The position numbers and the translations under genes were made by a program. Below, piece by piece: positions 5,714-47,163 of a DNA stretch of 64,000 nt; the first letter of the stretch is position 1, and every line of letters starts with the position of its first letter. The stretch spans positions 1,689,001 through 1,753,000 of the forward strand of contig NZ_CP035107.1 in the NCBI RefSeq assembly GCF_004088395.1. Reading direction: 5' to 3'. This stretch comes from Ornithobacterium rhinotracheale. Lineage in GTDB: Bacteria > Bacteroidota > Bacteroidia > Flavobacteriales > Weeksellaceae. The notes under the pieces are model-generated. The model worked only from the letters and a program-made list of their open reading frames with translations. It was not told where the DNA came from and searched no databases.

Positions 5714-6265
5714 TTTTGTAATTGTTTTTATTGTGTTTTTTGAATTTTGCCGCAAATTAAAATATTTTAATTTTTTTCTGCAACAATTAATTTGGCTTGT
5801 TTGCTTATTTTTTCGGCTTATTGTGCCCTAAGTCGTCCTTTTTACTTCATTTAAAGCTTCTCGTGGTTAAGTTTTGGCACGCTGCGCCGTTGTTTTTATA
5901 CCCCTACTACTCACTTTCCTACTCCTACCGCTCATTCTTCTATTCCTATAAGTCATTTTTTGAAAGATTCGCAAAAAAATGAGCTCCTACCTATCATTCT
6001 TCTACTCCTACCGGTCATTCTTGCGTTCCTACTGCTCATTCTTCTATTCCTACCACTCATTCTTGCATTCCTACTGATCATTCTTGGGCTCCTACTCGTC
6101 GTTCTTGTGTTCCTACCGTTCATTCTTCTATTCCTCACGACGATTTTTTGCGAATTTCGTAAAATGATGAGCTCCTCAAGGGCTTTTTTTGAAGATTTCG
6201 CAAAGATGGTGTGCAACGCAGGGGGAATATTGGGAAGAAGACTATGCTTTTATCCTTAAATGGTG
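5714..6265. other. Non-coding interval holding a 21-bp degenerate array, no convincing gene
   Basis: Between the DHS-like gene and arginine decarboxylase there are 550 bp without a recognisable gene. Several frames stay open across 5900-6250 only because the repeat length (21 bp) is a multiple of three: one strand gives a Leu/Ile-rich string, the other an Arg/Met/Ser/Asn-rich string, neither with family features. A segment TTGAAAGATTCGCAAA (5960-5975) that interrupts the array resembles TTGAAGATTTCGCAAA (6189-6204) beyond its end, and GAGCTCCT follows or precedes each. Confidence 0.6.
5903..6135. repeat. Degenerate 21-bp tandem array (CCTAC units)
   Basis: Units begin with CCTAC or CCTAT at 5903, 5924 and 5945; after an interruption they resume at 5986, 6007, 6028, 6049, 6070, 6091 and 6112, each exactly 21 bp apart, ending at about 6135. 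A typical unit reads CCTACCGCTCATTCTTCTA plus TT; TCATTCTT is its best kept core. Copies differ from each other at several positions, so this is an old, diverged array. There are no unique spacers, so it is not CRISPR. Confidence 0.85.
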
Positions 6266-7660
6266 CTATTTATAGCCTAGGATATGCATAAAATTCTCGG
6301 CGGATTGTTGTTTTGAGAATAGCTTGGTGGTGATGTTTCCGTCTTTATCTCTATCAATTAAAATATGTTTTGGCTTAGGGATTAAGCAGTGTTGCAGCCC
6401 TCCAAAACCGCCAATAGTGTCTTGATAGGCGCCCGTGTTAAAGAACCCGATGTAGAGGGGTTTATCTTTTTTAAATTTAGGCAGAAAGATGGCGTTTAAG
6501 TTTTGCTCCGAGTTGTAATAATCATCGCTATCGCAAGTCAGCCCCCCGAGGAGTACGCGCTCATACTCATCATTCCAGCGATTAATGGCGAGTAATACAA
6601 AACGCTTGCTTATCGCCCAGCTATCTGGCAAAGTGGTGATGAAAGAGGAATCTATCATATTCCACTTTTCGCGGTCATTTTGTTGTTTTTGGTAAAGGAT
6701 TTGGTATATCGCGCCACCACTTTCGCCCACGGTGAAGCTCCCGAATTCGGTGTACAAATGGGGGACTTCCACGCCTGCATTTTCGCAATATTGCTTAATT
6801 TGGTTCACGATTTCATTTGCCATATAGGCATAATCATAGGTAAAGTGAAGTGTGTTTTTAATCGGGAAGCCGCCCCCAATGTTAAGGCTATCAAGGGTGG
6901 GGCAAATTTTCTTTAAATCCACATACACTTTCAAGCACTTGGTAAGCTCGCTCCAATAGTAGGCGGTGTCTCTAATTCCTGTATTGATGAAGAAATGCAG
7001 CATTTTAAGGCTCACTTTCTTGTTATCTCTAAGCTCTTTTTTATAAAACGGAACAATGTCGCGGTACCCAATGCCTAAGCGGGAGGTGTAGAACTCAAAT
7101 TTTGGCTCCTCCTCCGAGGCTATACGGATTCCCACCTGATATTTACCTTTGATGGCTTCACTAAGGAGGCTTAATTCTTCATAATTATCAATGATGGGCA
7201 GGCATTTTTTATGCCCGTTATTAATCAATCGTGCGATGTTTTCAATATATTGGTCGCGTTTAAAACCATTGCACACAATCCAGTTTTTCTTTGTTATTTT
7301 TCCAGACTTCATCAGAGACTCCACGATATTGATGTCAAAGGCGGAGCTTGTCTCTATATGGATATCATTTTTAAGCGCCTCATTAAGCACAAAAGAAAAA
7401 TGCGAACTCTTGGTACAGTAGCAATAGTTGTAAGTGGCGCCATAATTATGTGCCTTAATAGCATCATTAAACCACTTTTTGGCCTTTTTTATATTCTCAG
7501 AGATTTTAGGCAAATAGGTAAACTTCAGTGGCGCTCCATACTCCTCAATCAAGCCCATTAAATCAATGCCGTGGAACTTTAAATTAGCCCCCTCTAAAGT
7601 AAACTCCTCTTGCGGAAAATAGTAAGTTTGGTCTATTAAATCAAAATACTTAATCTTCAT
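6266..7660 (-). CDS. Arginine decarboxylase (fold type III, PLP-dependent)
   Basis: This 464-residue protein resembles flavobacterial arginine decarboxylases of the alanine-racemase-fold group. Visible features are the PLP-lysine region NYCYCTKSSHF (residue ~80), the glycine-rich phosphate-binding stretch LNIGGGFPIKN, and the C-terminal substrate region GLTCDSDDYYN and GFFNTGAYQDTIGG. It would make agmatine from arginine, the first step to putrescine and spermidine. The DHS-like gene lies downstream on the same strand. Assignment to arginine rather than ornithine or diaminopimelate is from family resemblance. Confidence 0.85.
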   Translation of the reverse strand: MKIKYFDLIDQTYYFPQEEFTLEGANLKFHGIDLMGLIEEYGAPLKFTYLPKISENIKKAKKWFNDAIKAHNYGATYNYCYCTKSSHFSFVLNEALKNDIHIETSSAFDINIVESLMKSGKITKKNWIVCNGFKRDQYIENIARLINNGHKKCLPIIDNYEELSLLSEAIKGKYQVGIRIASEEEPKFEFYTSRLGIGYRDIVPFYKKELRDNKKVSLKMLHFFINTGIRDTAYYWSELTKCLKVYVDLKKICPTLDSLNIGGGFPIKNTLHFTYDYAYMANEIVNQIKQYCENAGVEVPHLYTEFGSFTVGESGGAIYQILYQKQQNDREKWNMIDSSFITTLPDSWAISKRFVLLAINRWNDEYERVLLGGLTCDSDDYYNSEQNLNAIFLPKFKKDKPLYIGFFNTGAYQDTIGGFGGLQHCLIPKPKHILIDRDKDGNITTKLFSKQQSAENFMHILGYK

Positions 7661-37466: not shown

Positions 37467-39335
37467 TTAAATAAATTCGCTTAGCTCTAGCCATCGCATT
37501 TCTTTTTCCTCTAAGGCCTCGGTAATTTGTTGTAATTCCGCTCCTATTTCTTTGATTTTCTCGTAATCGGTTTCGCCTAAAAGCTGATTGCTAAGCGCTT
37601 CTTTCTTTTCTTCTAATAGGGGAAGCTCTTTTTCTAGCTGCTCAAATTCTCTTTTTTCCTTAAAGCTTAATTTCTTTTTAGGCGCTTCGGCTTTGGCTAT
37701 GGAGGGCTTTTTGCGTGGTGCTTGCTCTCGCTGTTGCTGGGCTTTTTCCTTGGCTAATGCACGGTATTCGGTAAAGTTTCCCACGAAATCAGAGACTACA
37801 CCCTCTCCCTCAAAGACTAGGGTGTGCTCAATGATGCGGTCCATAAAATATCTATCGTGCGACACGATGATTAAACAGCCTTGATACTGCTGCAAGAAGT
37901 TTTCCAAGACGGTGAGAGTCTGCAAATCTAAATCATTAGTAGGCTCATCAAAAATTAAAAAATTAGGGTTTTGATAAAGCACATACATTAGGTGAAGTCT
38001 TCGCTTTTCGCCGCCTGAAAGTTTGGCTATGGGGGCATACTGCGTTTGGTCATCAAACAAAAATAAGCGCAAAAACTGTGAGGCAGAGAGGCTTCGCCCA
38101 TTGGCTAGGGGGTAATTTTCGGCTATTTCTTTTATAAAATCAATCACACGCTCCTCCTCTTTAAAGGCTAAGCCTTTTTGTGAGAAGTAGCCGATTTTAA
38201 TAGTCTCTCCTGTTTCGATTTCGCCAGAATCATAGGGTTCCAGCCCTTGTATGATGTTTAAAAAAGTGGATTTCCCTACGCCATTGCCTCCGATGATTCC
38301 TACTTTTTCGCCCCGCTGAAAGTTGTACGAAAAGTCTTTTAAAATCACCTTTTCGCCAAAGCTTTTATTTAGATTCTTAATGCTTAAAATCTTTTTCCCA
38401 AGCCGCTTCATCTCAAAATCAAGGTTAAGGTTTTCTTTTGCCACATTTTGCTTGGCTACTTTTTCCGTTTCGTAGAACGCCTCTATTCTGCTTTTGGATT
38501 TTCCTGTGCGTGCTTTGGGCTGGCGACGCATCCATTCTAATTCCTTACGATACAAATTATTAGCCTTATCAATATTTGCCTGTAAATTTTCTTCTCTTAG
38601 GGCTTTATTTTCTAAATAATCGGCGTAGGCACCGCGGTGAATGTACAATTTTTGGTCTTCCAGCTCCCAGATGATATCACAAATATTGTCCAGAAAATAC
38701 CTATCGTGCGTTACAAGAAGCAGTGTAACTTTTGCCATCGAGAGGTACTGTTCCAGCCACTCCACCATATCTACATCTAGGTGATTGGTAGGCTCATCCA
38801 TAATGAGCAGCGTATGCTTATGCTCTGCACGGATTTCGAGCAAAAGTTTTGCCAGCGCCACACGCTTCACCTCGCCTCCTGAGAGCTTTCCCATTGGCTT
38901 ATCAAGCGCCGTAATTTTCAATTGCCCCAAAATCTGCTTCATCTCAGATTCCAGCTCCCAAGCCTTATGCTGCTCCATTTCTGCAATCGCTTGGCTTAGC
39001 TTTTCAGCATTGCCCGAGTGCATATTTTTCTGGTAATTTTTAAGCGCCATAATGGGCGGAATCGCTAGCTGCATCATAAAATCCTCTACCGAGAGCGCTG
39101 GCTCAAATCGTATCTCTTGGTCAAAAAACACCGTTTGAATCTCCTTATTTATCAAAATCCTGCCCTCATCACTAGGCTCCATTCCCATAATGATTTTAAG
39201 CAAAGTAGACTTGCCCGAGCCATTTTTAGCCACCAAGGCAATTTTATCGCCCTCATTGATGTGAAACGAGATATCCTTAAAAAGGACTTTCAGCCCATAC
39301 GATTTGGTAAGATTTTCCGCCGTAATATAGTTCAT
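37467..39335 (-). CDS. ABC-F family ATPase (Uup/EttA-like)
   Basis: The 622-residue soluble protein has two ABC domains without membrane segments. First domain: GSGKSTLLKIIMG, signature KLSGGEVKRVALAK, TLLIMDEPTNHLD. Second: GGNGVGKSTFLNII, KLSGGEKRRLHLM, FLIFDEPTNDLD. Between them is the ABC-F linker (RKELEWMRRQPKARTGKSKS), and the C-terminus is a coiled coil (FEQLEKELPLLEEKKEALSN), as in Uup. Such proteins act on the ribosome; the linker is short, so it is more likely housekeeping than antibiotic resistance. A TACCTTTG box lies about 23 nt upstream. Confidence 0.93.
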   Translation of the reverse strand: MNYITAENLTKSYGLKVLFKDISFHINEGDKIALVAKNGSGKSTLLKIIMGMEPSDEGRILINKEIQTVFFDQEIRFEPALSVEDFMMQLAIPPIMALKNYQKNMHSGNAEKLSQAIAEMEQHKAWELESEMKQILGQLKITALDKPMGKLSGGEVKRVALAKLLLEIRAEHKHTLLIMDEPTNHLDVDMVEWLEQYLSMAKVTLLLVTHDRYFLDNICDIIWELEDQKLYIHRGAYADYLENKALREENLQANIDKANNLYRKELEWMRRQPKARTGKSKSRIEAFYETEKVAKQNVAKENLNLDFEMKRLGKKILSIKNLNKSFGEKVILKDFSYNFQRGEKVGIIGGNGVGKSTFLNIIQGLEPYDSGEIETGETIKIGYFSQKGLAFKEEERVIDFIKEIAENYPLANGRSLSASQFLRLFLFDDQTQYAPIAKLSGGEKRRLHLMYVLYQNPNFLIFDEPTNDLDLQTLTVLENFLQQYQGCLIIVSHDRYFMDRIIEHTLVFEGEGVVSDFVGNFTEYRALAKEKAQQQREQAPRKKPSIAKAEAPKKKLSFKEKREFEQLEKELPLLEEKKEALSNQLLGETDYEKIKEIGAELQQITEALEEKEMRWLELSEFI

Positions 39336-39357: not shown

Positions 39358-39365
39358 CAAAGGTA
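39358..39365 (-). promoter_or_regulatory. -7 box TACCTTTG of the ABC-F gene
   Basis: Minus-strand match to TAnnTTTG with a leader of about 15 nt. Confidence 0.45.
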
Positions 39366-39471: not shown

Positions 39472-39975
39472 GCGTTTTTTTTGATTAAATCAGTGAAAAT
39501 TTTGGACACCGAAGCCAAAAATTTCGATACCGCAGCCTTTTTTTTCGATATTCGAGGCAAAAAAATCGATATTCAAACTAAAAACTTCGATACCAAGCCT
39601 AAAAACTTCTCTGATTTAGCCAAACACTTCGCTAATTCAATCAAATAATGCCCTAATTTAGCCCAAAAATAGCCCTCAGCGAGCAAAAGTTTTATCTCTT
39701 AACCCAATTTTTTCGATACTGTGCCTAATTTTTTAGCCTTGCAACCTAAAAATTTAGACCACCGACCTAAATTTTTGAATACCCTGCCTAAAAATTTCGA
39801 TATTTGATGTAAAAATTTGGCTTCGGTATCCAATTTTTTTGATACTGCGCCTAAAAATTTCTCTGATTTACCTAAAATTTTGGATACTCTGCCTAAAATT
39901 TCACCCTCTCACCCTAAAAAATTAGCCCCACTCCCTAAAATTTTAGGTGATGAGGCTAAAAAATAAAATTGCCCT
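39472..39975. repeat. 24-unit degenerate 21-bp array with phased A/T tracts
   Basis: Unit starts fall exactly every 21 bp: 39472, 39493, 39514 and so on to 39955, 24 in all with no net indel. Each starts with a short GC-containing box (mostly CCT, GCC) followed by an A/T tract (AAAAATTT, ATTTTTT) and often CGATAC. Consensus is about cCTAAAAATTT, cGATAc, ctg. The region is between the ABC-F and fabH genes, which both run on the minus strand and face away from each other's promoters. The only open frame (39460-39648) is a by-product of 21 being divisible by three. No cas gene and no unique spacers are present. 21 bp equals two helical turns, so the tracts are in phase. Confidence 0.9.
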
Positions 39976-40015
39976 GAGCGGCATTCTTCTGCCACAGCGT
40001 GGCACGAAGGTTTTC

Positions 40016-41026
40016 TTAAAAATTCATCAGCACGCTACCCCAAGTGAAACCGCTCCCGAAGGCCGTCATACACACCAAGTCGCCTTGCTTAATGCGGCCT
40101 TGCTCCTTGGCCTCGGAAAGGGCAATTGGGATTGAGGCGGCGGTAGTGTTGCCATATTTTTGGATATTATTAAATACCTTTTCGCTCGGCAAGCCCATTT
40201 GTTTTTGGAGAAATTGACTGATTCTTAAATTGGCTTGATGGGGAATGAATAGGTCTAAATCCTCGAGCGGGATTTGCGCCTCTGTGAATGCCTCTTTGAT
40301 GGATTCTGCAAAACGCGTGATGGCGTGTTTGAAGACAAAGTTGCCGTTCATATGCGGGTATAGCAGGTGCGCATCAATGTTATGATTCTCTTCGAGCAAG
40401 GTATCTGCCCAGCCGTATTTGGTGCCGGGGAAGCCCATCATAAGCTCCTCGGCGTGTTTCCCATCGGAGTGAAGATTGGTGGCAATGATTCCGCGGCTTG
40501 GGTCTTCGCTAGGGCTCACAATTACAGCGCCTGCGCCGTCGCCAAAGATTACGGAGACATTTCGCCCGCGGGTTGTCATATCTAGCCCAAATGATTGCAC
40601 CTCTGCGCCCACTACGAGTATGTTTTTATATTTGCCCGCTTTGATGAAGGCCTCGGCGGTGGCTAATGCATAAACGAAGCCAGAACATTGATTTCTCACA
40701 TCAAGTGCTCCTACATTTCCTATGCCTAATTTATCTTGCAAAATCACACCACACCCAGGGAAATAGTAATCTGGACTTAAGGTTGCAAATATGATGAAAT
40801 CGATGTCTTGTTTATCAATCTGCGCATCTTCTATGGCTCTGAGTGCTGCTTGGTAGCCTAAATCGGCGCTAGTTTGCCCGCCGTGTTTTCCTACATGGCG
40901 GCGCTGCTCAATGCCTGTGCGCTCAACGATCCACTCGTTGCTGGTGTCCATTAATTTTTCTAAATCTGAGTTGGTAACTACTCGTTCAGGGACATAATGC
41001 CCTACTCCTTTTATAAATGCTTTCAT
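40016..41026 (-). CDS. fabH: 3-oxoacyl-ACP synthase III (FabH)
   Basis: The 336-residue enzyme condenses acetyl-CoA with malonyl-ACP to start fatty acid synthesis. It has the Cys active site NQCSGFVYALATA (C114), FIPHQANLRISQFLQ with the catalytic His, and KYGNTTAASIPIALSEA with the Asn. DTSNEWIVERTGIEQRR is the usual N-terminal signature. It runs on the minus strand, downstream of the PAP2 phosphatase gene. The array at 39472-39975 begins 41 bp past its stop. Confidence 0.95.
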   Translation of the reverse strand: MKAFIKGVGHYVPERVVTNSDLEKLMDTSNEWIVERTGIEQRRHVGKHGGQTSADLGYQAALRAIEDAQIDKQDIDFIIFATLSPDYYFPGCGVILQDKLGIGNVGALDVRNQCSGFVYALATAEAFIKAGKYKNILVVGAEVQSFGLDMTTRGRNVSVIFGDGAGAVIVSPSEDPSRGIIATNLHSDGKHAEELMMGFPGTKYGWADTLLEENHNIDAHLLYPHMNGNFVFKHAITRFAESIKEAFTEAQIPLEDLDLFIPHQANLRISQFLQKQMGLPSEKVFNNIQKYGNTTAASIPIALSEAKEQGRIKQGDLVCMTAFGSGFTWGSVLMNF

Positions 41027-46128: not shown

Positions 46129-46366
46129 AAAAAAGAACTTTCTAATTTGTTTAATATTTTTAAAATCAAGCCCATCCCTCTAAATGATTTTTTATAAAAT
46201 AGCCCTCTCAAACGCATTACTGCGTAAAAAAGCGCAGCATTTGGTGCATTACAGAGTTCTAATTGGCAATACTTAGGTATAACTTTTTTATAATTATGAT
46301 AGAAATACTTGTAGCCAAATTTGCTACTTAGAGCAAATGCGTGAAGGATTATCTTGCGAATGAAGG
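46125..46366 (-). other. Out-of-frame C-terminal part of the phase-variable glycosyltransferase
   Basis: Past the AAGG tract a different frame stays open as KAFIRKIILHAFALSSKFGY and runs to a stop at 46125, with the helical, basic C-terminal look of GT2 family members. With one repeat unit fewer this frame follows the N-terminal domain directly and gives a 344-residue protein. Confidence 0.8.
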
Positions 46367-47163
46367 CCTTCCTTCCTTCCTTCCTTCCTTCCTTCCTTCC
46401 TTCCTTCCTTCCTTCCTTCCTTCCTTCCTTCCTTCCTTCCTTCCTTATCAACGAAGTAAATCATTTTATCTATCACAGAGACGGTATCATCTATGTGGGA
46501 TTTAGTCAGAGTTGAAGTAGCATTCTCCCCGTGCTTAAGATAAACATAGGTAACCTCACTTACTGCAAAAACTGACTTTACTCCATTAAACACCTGAAAA
46601 GAAAAGTACATATCTTCATTCATTTTAATACCAATGGGATATTTTATATCACGCTCTCTTAATAGAGATAGTTTATATAAGTTACTATGTATCTGATAAG
46701 ATGCATTTCTAAAGCAATAATCCCTAGCCGTATCCTCATCTCTTAAATCAACCTCTTTCCCCTTAGATAAAACTGGCTCTTTTCCCTCAAAAATCATAGC
46801 CTTATTGCCTAGCACTAAATCAAAATCGTATGATGATATAGGCGCCACAAGCTCTTTCAAGGCATTATTTCCCACTAAATAATCATCTGCATCTACAAAC
46901 ATTATATACTCCCCCTGAGCAATATCTATCCCTAAGTTTCGGGCAGATGACACCCCTCCATTTTCTTTTGACACTAATCTAAAACGCTCATCTTTACTTT
47001 GCCACCTCAAAGCTATTTCCTCAACATCATCAGGGCTACCATCATTTATAATTAAACATTCATAATCTTGATATGTTTGCTCATAAATTGACTGCAAACA
47101 TTTATCTAAAAACTTCTCCACATTATAACATGGAACAACAATTGAAATTAATGTTTTTTTCAT
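46324..47163 (-). CDS. Phase-variable glycosyltransferase family 2 (present frame truncated)
   Basis: The 279-residue product in the current frame has the complete GT-A nucleotide-sugar domain: ISIVVPCYNVEKFLDKCL, CLIINDGSPDD, GVSSARNLGIDIAQGEYIMF and the DxD-type motif FVDADDYLV. After FVDK it enters a KEGR repeat encoded by 20 AAGG units and then reads GLHSQDNPSRICSK and stops, instead of the expected C-terminal helix. Likely transfers a sugar to a surface polysaccharide or LPS; donor and acceptor unknown. It lies downstream of tsaC-like on the same strand. Confidence 0.9.
   Translation of the reverse strand: MKKTLISIVVPCYNVEKFLDKCLQSIYEQTYQDYECLIINDGSPDDVEEIALRWQSKDERFRLVSKENGGVSSARNLGIDIAQGEYIMFVDADDYLVGNNALKELVAPISSYDFDLVLGNKAMIFEGKEPVLSKGKEVDLRDEDTARDYCFRNASYQIHSNLYKLSLLRERDIKYPIGIKMNEDMYFSFQVFNGVKSVFAVSEVTYVYLKHGENATSTLTKSHIDDTVSVIDKMIYFVDKEGRKEGRKEGRKEGRKEGRKEGRKEGLHSQDNPSRICSK
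46367..46446. repeat. Tetranucleotide tract (CCTT)20 inside the glycosyltransferase gene
   Basis: Eighty uninterrupted bases of CCTT (AAGG in the coding strand). 80 is not a multiple of three, so copy number sets the reading frame: 19 copies joins the full-length C-terminus, 20 (here) reads a 14-residue wrong tail, and 21 stops after five extra residues (PSFAR). Confidence 0.97.

Follow-up and report, generated by a model that had tools for sequence, protein, structure and literature searches.

A 21-bp array between fabH and an ABC-F-type ATPase gene

The window analyzed here is a 64-kb stretch, positions 1689001–1753000, of the one-contig 2.25-Mb genome of Ornithobacterium rhinotracheale. 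At positions 39472–39975 it contains an intergenic tandem array made of 24 units of 21 bp, which is flanked on one side by fabH (3-oxoacyl-ACP synthase III; 40016–41026, minus strand; Pfam ACP_syn_III and ACP_syn_III_C), the array lying on the 3′ side of this gene, and on the other side by a gene for an ABC-F-type ATPase (37467–39335, minus strand; two ABC_tran domains, ABC_tran_Xtn and ABC_tran_CTD), the start codon of which the array precedes by about 140 bp. Terminator-like hairpins (39955–40010, minus strand) separate the 3′ end of fabH from the array; their sequence and RNA fold (−19.1 kcal/mol) suggest that they may terminate transcription, and the last of them has a T-run that overlaps the final unit of the array. 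On the ABC-F side, sequence comparison points to a candidate −7 promoter element, TACCTTTG (39358–39365, minus strand), which fits the consensus of the Bacteroidota −7 element, TAnnTTTG, and which is kept as TATCTTTG in sister species devoid of the array. Elsewhere in the window, 20 copies of CCTT (46367–46446) occupy the 3′ part of a glycosyltransferase-like gene (46324–47163, minus strand), which is a candidate phase-variable locus operating by slippage.

The identity of the array with itself is 0.545 at a lag of 21 bp, 0.522 at 42 bp and 0.528 at 63 bp, compared to a mean of 0.280 at lag 21 (sd 0.021, maximum 0.356) for 1000 dinucleotide-preserving shuffles; the array and the region around 5840–6190 have the two strongest period-21 signals in the 64-kb window. 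The original prediction, made from the sequence alone, of 24 units following one another every 21 bp over 504 bp is borne out by these values. The absence of a net insertion or deletion, which it also claimed, holds as well, since the best local lag is 21 nearly everywhere; the exceptions (22, 20 and 20) are confined to a degenerate centre, around 39640–39700, within which small compensating shifts may have occurred. As to the conserved part of the unit, said to consist of a GC box plus an A/T tract, the latter stands, as an A/T box (AAAAATTT or variants) covering columns 4–11. The GC box is weaker: the remaining ~13 bases drift, and outside the A/T box only a C in column 2 and a G in column 13 recur in most units.

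Related arrays in the genome and their turnover

BLAST detects relatives of the array at six other places in the genome. A search for the pattern AAWWWTT repeated four times at 21-bp steps, with at most two mismatches, gave 104 matches in the genome, compared to none for the reversed pattern. Among the matches listed, there are seven clusters, at about 58.0, 200.3, 242.0, 1530.6, 1534.7, 1728.7 (the array at 39472–39975) and 2132.0 kb, and a single match apart from them, at 120 kb. The seven clusters all occupy intergenic DNA: the 58-kb one sits just 5′ of a gene, and each of the other six immediately follows the 3′ end of one gene or more.

The arrays differ in their presence between related species. 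In the sister species G001 and G002, fabH and the ABC-F gene are also adjacent, with a gap of 156 bp and no array, versus 680 bp here; comparison with this syntenic locus reveals neither terminal inverted repeats nor target duplications at the 39472–39975 site. On the other hand, the 200-kb array has orthologs in both G001 and G002, and the 2132-kb array has one in G001. Within the 200-kb ortholog set, base differences in the array are about as frequent as at third codon positions, and there are no indels. The arrays at 1530 and 242 kb, which belong to unrelated loci, are 89% identical over 409 bp and differ by an 84-bp gap, equal to four units; the block common to both loci consists of a hairpin and the array. 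Taken together, this pair and the comparison with G001 and G002 indicate that arrays are gained or lost as blocks and that unit number varies by whole units. Arrays are apparently also copied as blocks.

Two gene clusters found next to such arrays resemble each other: RHS core fragments and candidate toxin/immunity genes lie between the 1530- and 1534-kb arrays (L009, 4600–7000), and an array of a more distant genome (G138, L174) is flanked by a polymorphic-toxin-like cluster of the same kind.

Pairing of the arrays with small-protein genes

Two of the seven arrays of this genome (among the matches listed) lie directly 3′ of genes coding for ~165-aa proteins, 69% identical to each other, which belong to an uncharacterized family of helical proteins of ~160–165 aa, referred to as family A. 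Related arrays follow family-A homologs in G002 and in two further genera, represented by G100 and by G138, the protein of the latter being 37% identical; conversely, G003, the one sister species devoid of family A, is also devoid of matching arrays. A profile search detected family A in 56 of the 148 genomes and 16 of the 33 genera of the host's bacterial family; in the phylum as a whole its occurrence is sporadic (18 of 296 genomes).

To assess the association, we examined 600 bp on either side of the gene at 70 family-A loci and noted which period in the range of 15–30 bp gave the strongest signal. Downstream, the best period is 21 at 47 loci and 22 at 12, i.e. 59 out of 70 (binomial p = 2.7e-42); upstream, it is 21 or 22 at 13 of the 70 loci, with 8.75 expected (p = 0.09). 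After clustering of the proteins at 70% identity, an array is still present beside 31 of the 43 clusters, and for distant family-A members, at the phylum level, 21 is the best period on one side in 11 cases out of 13 (p = 7e-9). About a sixth of the family-A loci have no clear array. As a background, 689 kb surrounding 80 fabH genes contain only two clear 21-bp arrays, one of which (L084) adjoins a frameshifted family-A gene. The pairing of family A with the arrays is thus strongly supported.

The other background array (L083, 5105–5440, Chryseobacterium sp. R2A-55) has another sequence and lies directly 3′ of fabH, in the same position as the array at 39472–39975; a distant genus and this genome both have a 21-bp array at this place. 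Two further period-21 matches, L070 8839–8943 and L078 8890–8992, were excluded from the background: they are AAAAGAT microsatellites of ~14 units, in which a 7-bp repeat mimics the 21-bp period, with a short lipoprotein-like gene just downstream.

Usually the array follows closely on the stop codon of the family-A gene, in many cases with a terminator-like hairpin before it; inspection by eye shows such hairpins separating gene and array in several loci, and some arrays (L191, L199) are closed by one. At L235, L251 and L191, either beside the gene or where the array ends, the units seem to double as a terminator-like hairpin (a unit and an inverted unit, then a T-run). At L205, ~180–340 bases behind the family-A gene, near-exact 43-bp repeats (~21 + 22) are found in place of diverged 21-bp units.

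The units are wholly different between family-A clades (e.g. GTTCGGAACCGGGACGACGGG, GACCCTATAGGGTGTAAATTA and AAAATTTTAGGTCTTTCGGTT), and the GC content of the array stretches examined ranges from 26 to 59%. G138 alone has three family-A paralogs and three motifs. The period label clusters on the family-A tree (17 changes versus a shuffled mean of 28.2). Shared descent of the neighboring DNA alone could make the motif follow the protein clade.

Properties of the family-A protein

Searches of Pfam, NCBIfam, PHROGs, PADLOC and PDB sequences gave no convincing match for family A, nor was a DNA-binding domain recognized in it. With a median pI of 5.3 and a net charge of −3, the proteins are acidic, which is untypical of DNA-binding proteins and counts against the idea that they bind the arrays. 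An HxH motif is present in one of 79 proteins, and no transposase or nuclease was found. AlphaFold2 models of two family-A sequences were unusable (pLDDT 43). We rejected the possibility that family A is mobile-element cargo, as phages, plasmids and viral contigs, including those of IMG/VR, yielded no member of it, and the possibility that it has operon partners, as no neighbor recurs beyond orthologous blocks; in particular, there is no recurrent ATPase, be it of the ParM/ParA type, among its neighbors. Between two genera (L177 and L171) with FabH proteins of ~65% identity, one family-A locus and its array show 82% DNA identity, suggesting horizontal transfer.

A second array in the window and the PQLLE family

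The second 21-bp array of the window (5904–6180), located 3′ of gene 6266–7660 (minus strand), has a motif, TCCTACCnnTCATTCTTnTnT, that differs from that of the array at 39472–39975, and it has relatives at several further places in the genome. At L312, and at its G002 counterpart, L315, arrays of this motif are found just upstream of a gene for a 218-aa protein; the L312 product matches the NCBIfam 'PQLLE family'. The 5904–6180 array is an orphan of this PQLLE-linked array family. Across the phylum, 21 is the best upstream period at 13 of 17 loci of the PQLLE family and its remote relatives (p = 4e-13), in a test weaker than the family-A one because many matches fall below the family cut-off and some flanks are short. 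Placement is therefore not uniform, PQLLE arrays being upstream and family-A arrays mostly downstream. That family A and PQLLE might be one family was rejected, profile comparison giving this a probability of 0.2%.

A proposed DNA-level element read by its helical spacing

Our preferred reading, to which we assign a probability of roughly 0.45, is that the array at 39472–39975 is an orphan of a DNA-level element, belonging to the array family linked to family A, whose period would be engaged by a cognate protein at every second helical turn. Either by itself or assisted by a host factor, the family-A protein would engage the array on one face of the helix, with one contact per two turns (21 bp), and would bind cooperatively as a lattice. 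With such one-face lattice binding, indels would not be tolerated and base changes would be; engagement on one face, at the level of DNA, is suggested by the two-turn spacing found in unrelated sequences beside unrelated proteins. The terminator-like hairpins seen between gene and array in several loci, and the lack of RNA structure in the array at 39472–39975, likewise favor DNA over RNA. Orphan arrays, for instance at the 3′ end of fabH, would be copies made from the array DNA of home loci, and the family-A protein would serve them in trans. The likely outcome would be a nucleoprotein patch in intergenic DNA, acting either as a selfish repeat with its maintenance protein or as an architectural or insulating element at gene ends. 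We have moderate confidence in this mechanism, whereby the array is engaged by a putative binder. Several observations count against it: the near-neutral substitution in the 200-kb set, which speaks against selection on unit sequence over short times, the placement of the arrays, upstream of PQLLE genes and mostly downstream of family-A genes, and the family-A loci, about a sixth, that have no clear array.

The most serious competitor, which we nevertheless regard as unlikely, overlaps this reading and makes mobility, not architecture, the point of the system: as in REPINs, the protein or a partner would promote copying of the array, and the orphans would be non-autonomous offspring without host function. 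It would account for the copy-and-paste-like pair at 1530 and 242 kb, the presence or absence of arrays between species, the sporadic, multi-copy distribution of family A, the lack of recurrent neighbor genes and the home locus that is 82% DNA-identical across genera with FabH at ~65%. It fits poorly with a family devoid of any transposase, nuclease or HuH motif (HxH in 1/79) and not found on plasmids, phages or viral contigs, with a site, 39472–39975, at which neither terminal inverted repeats nor target duplications are seen, and with the drift of the units, which means that copies are not kept identical.

That the array acts as RNA, either as a repeat RNA working with the protein, as in type III toxin-antitoxin systems, or as a 3′ UTR structure, is improbable. 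The layout of the loci, with a terminator-like hairpin between a small protein gene and an array, does resemble type III loci, and the L191 and L199 arrays end in such a hairpin. Moreover, when 28 arrays were folded on both strands and compared with shuffles, many folded better than expected. However, they did so to a similar degree on both strands, as expected from palindromic DNA, and there was little or no excess structure in L186, L203, L206, L238 and the array at 39472–39975 itself (z = 0.2 and −1.0). Rfam contains no family matching at threshold, the one match below it, to the icaR 5′ UTR (32.4 versus 88 bits), being taken as due to chance. The 21-bp period and the near-neutral bases point to DNA helix spacing, and the arrays are placed downstream of family-A genes and upstream of PQLLE genes. 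Dyad symmetry itself is present in only part of the arrays: a permutation test supports one dyad per unit, mainly in A/T-box arrays, and we discarded the arrangement suggested by eye, two dyads per unit ~10.5 bp apart, since this distance is not clearly above chance.

A neutral minisatellite, made by slippage and keeping its period because indels are rarer than substitutions, is a distinctly improbable explanation. Substitution close to the third-codon rate in orthologous arrays and differences of whole units between paralogous ones speak for it, but it leaves unexplained both the recurrence of the same period in unrelated sequences, at different GC contents and with two protein families, and the concentration of arrays beside family-A and PQLLE genes. 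Furthermore, for the units to be only about half identical without a net indel over 504 bp, many substitutions would have had to accumulate in the absence of slippage.

The original prediction suggested phased A-tracts that bend the DNA, forming an intrinsically curved segment or a generic nucleoid-protein site, an interpretation that now has very little to recommend it. A-tracts do recur every 21 bp in the arrays of this genome, but the curvature predicted with a dinucleotide wedge model is ordinary: the array at 39472–39975 ranks 72nd among 252 window tiles and is at z = 0.4 above its own shuffles, and nearly all sister arrays have z-scores between −1.5 and 1.3, with one outlier, L238. Curvature is thus not the common property of the arrays, many of which have the same period without A-tracts, at up to 59% GC; nor is RNA structure. 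Bending put aside, the prediction as a whole is partly supported. Of the outcomes that it named as refuting it, ordinary curvature is observed, and a lack of further arrays is not. The other intergenic 21-bp arrays that it proposed to look for in the genome do exist, and its view that spacing is kept rather than sequence agrees with the recurrence of the period, in the genome and in the phylum, with unrelated unit sequences, and with orthologous arrays that gain substitutions at about the third-codon-position rate and no indels. What matters most, namely that such arrays are paired with the gene of a small protein, was not visible from the window.

Finally, a degenerate gene for a protein made of seven-residue repeats (21 bp being seven codons), suggested by KNFDTxP repeats in part of one frame, can be dismissed, as there are several in-frame stops and no convincing or long ORF through the array, arrays with a 22-bp period exist, and terminator-like hairpins separate gene and array.

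Coming back to the preferred reading, an array engaged through its helical spacing, its extension to the phylum has in our view an even chance of being correct: Bacteroidota would harbor an undescribed class of elements, in which long arrays conserved only in their two-turn spacing would belong to two or more mutually unrelated small protein families, the unit sequence varying by clade and orphans being scattered, and in which the lattice would be read by geometry more than by sequence. More generally, these arrays seem to represent a widespread and apparently undescribed type of bacterial element, made of loosely similar blocks two turns apart with home copies beside small-protein genes. Our literature search, whose coverage of subscription journals was thin, found no description of such arrays with these proteins, and their newness rests on absence from the databases and literature searched. 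If pairing reflects binding, the arrays offer a tractable case of DNA recognition in which helical spacing is what mainly counts, and for which nature provides many protein/array pairs that differ in sequence and share one period, as well as a handle for testing the function of two uncharacterized protein families. They would also explain a class of Bacteroidota intergenic arrays for which we found no annotation.

Comparison with known systems

The arrays are not CRISPRs, as originally stated: instead of near-identical repeats with unique spacers, they contain units that have diverged along the whole length, and there are no recurrent neighbor genes at the home loci. They also differ from curved DNA with phased A-tracts in that their curvature, according to the wedge model, does not exceed that of ordinary AT-rich DNA. 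Type III toxin-antitoxin loci (ToxIN and relatives) combine tandem repeats and a small protein gene, with a terminator-like hairpin in between. Family-A loci share these three components; the array, however, comes after and not before the gene, its period is 21, and searches of Pfam, NCBIfam and PADLOC gave no toxin match that would relate family A to ToxN, CptN or TenpN.

BrickBuilt elements of Porphyromonas gingivalis are minisatellite-bearing MITEs whose 23-nt units share one consensus, AGAYCATARTATCCTCTCRTRTG, and whose terminal inverted repeats resemble those found in an IS; the accessible part of their description notes no partner gene (PMC4596501). The arrays resemble them in being dispersed intergenic tandem repeats of similar unit length in a Bacteroidota genome, and differ from them by their period of 21, their sequences and the lack of terminal repeats at the 39472–39975 site. 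Identity with BrickBuilt MITEs, as characterized there, is ruled out by period and sequence.

As in ParR/parC, iterons and BldC, a cooperative direct-repeat binder (PMC5859096), direct repeats in helical register lie beside a small protein gene, and by analogy with centromere-type arrays and BldC this register would allow cooperative binding on one face. Unlike partition centromeres, the arrays are chromosomal and dispersed, their unit sequence is not conserved, the protein is unrelated in sequence, and no ParM/ParA-type partner recurs.

The closest parallel is with REPtrons, the association of REP/REPIN sequences with RAYT transposases, where repeats are both dispersed extragenically and clustered beside a chromosomal gene, where repeat types track protein lineages, and where several protein types may coexist in a genome (PMC3116915, PMC6006769). 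REP repeats are 20–40-nt palindromes with a conserved tetranucleotide, and the gene encodes a HuH/Y1 transposase (PMC3116915, PMC6006769). Here, the partner is a ~160-aa helical protein with no HuH/Y1 signature (HxH in 1/79; no Pfam or NCBIfam match), and the repeats are continuous head-to-tail 21/22-bp arrays of drifting sequence rather than tagged single palindromes. As there is neither a HuH transposase nor tagged palindromes, we do not file the arrays under REP/RAYT. Yet, as in REPtrons, one repeat type is found both beside the gene and dispersed extragenically, the unit type differs by family-A lineage, and several paralogs coexist in a genome. A REP/RAYT-like system built from unrelated parts would be useful for asking why bacteria keep dispersed repeats.
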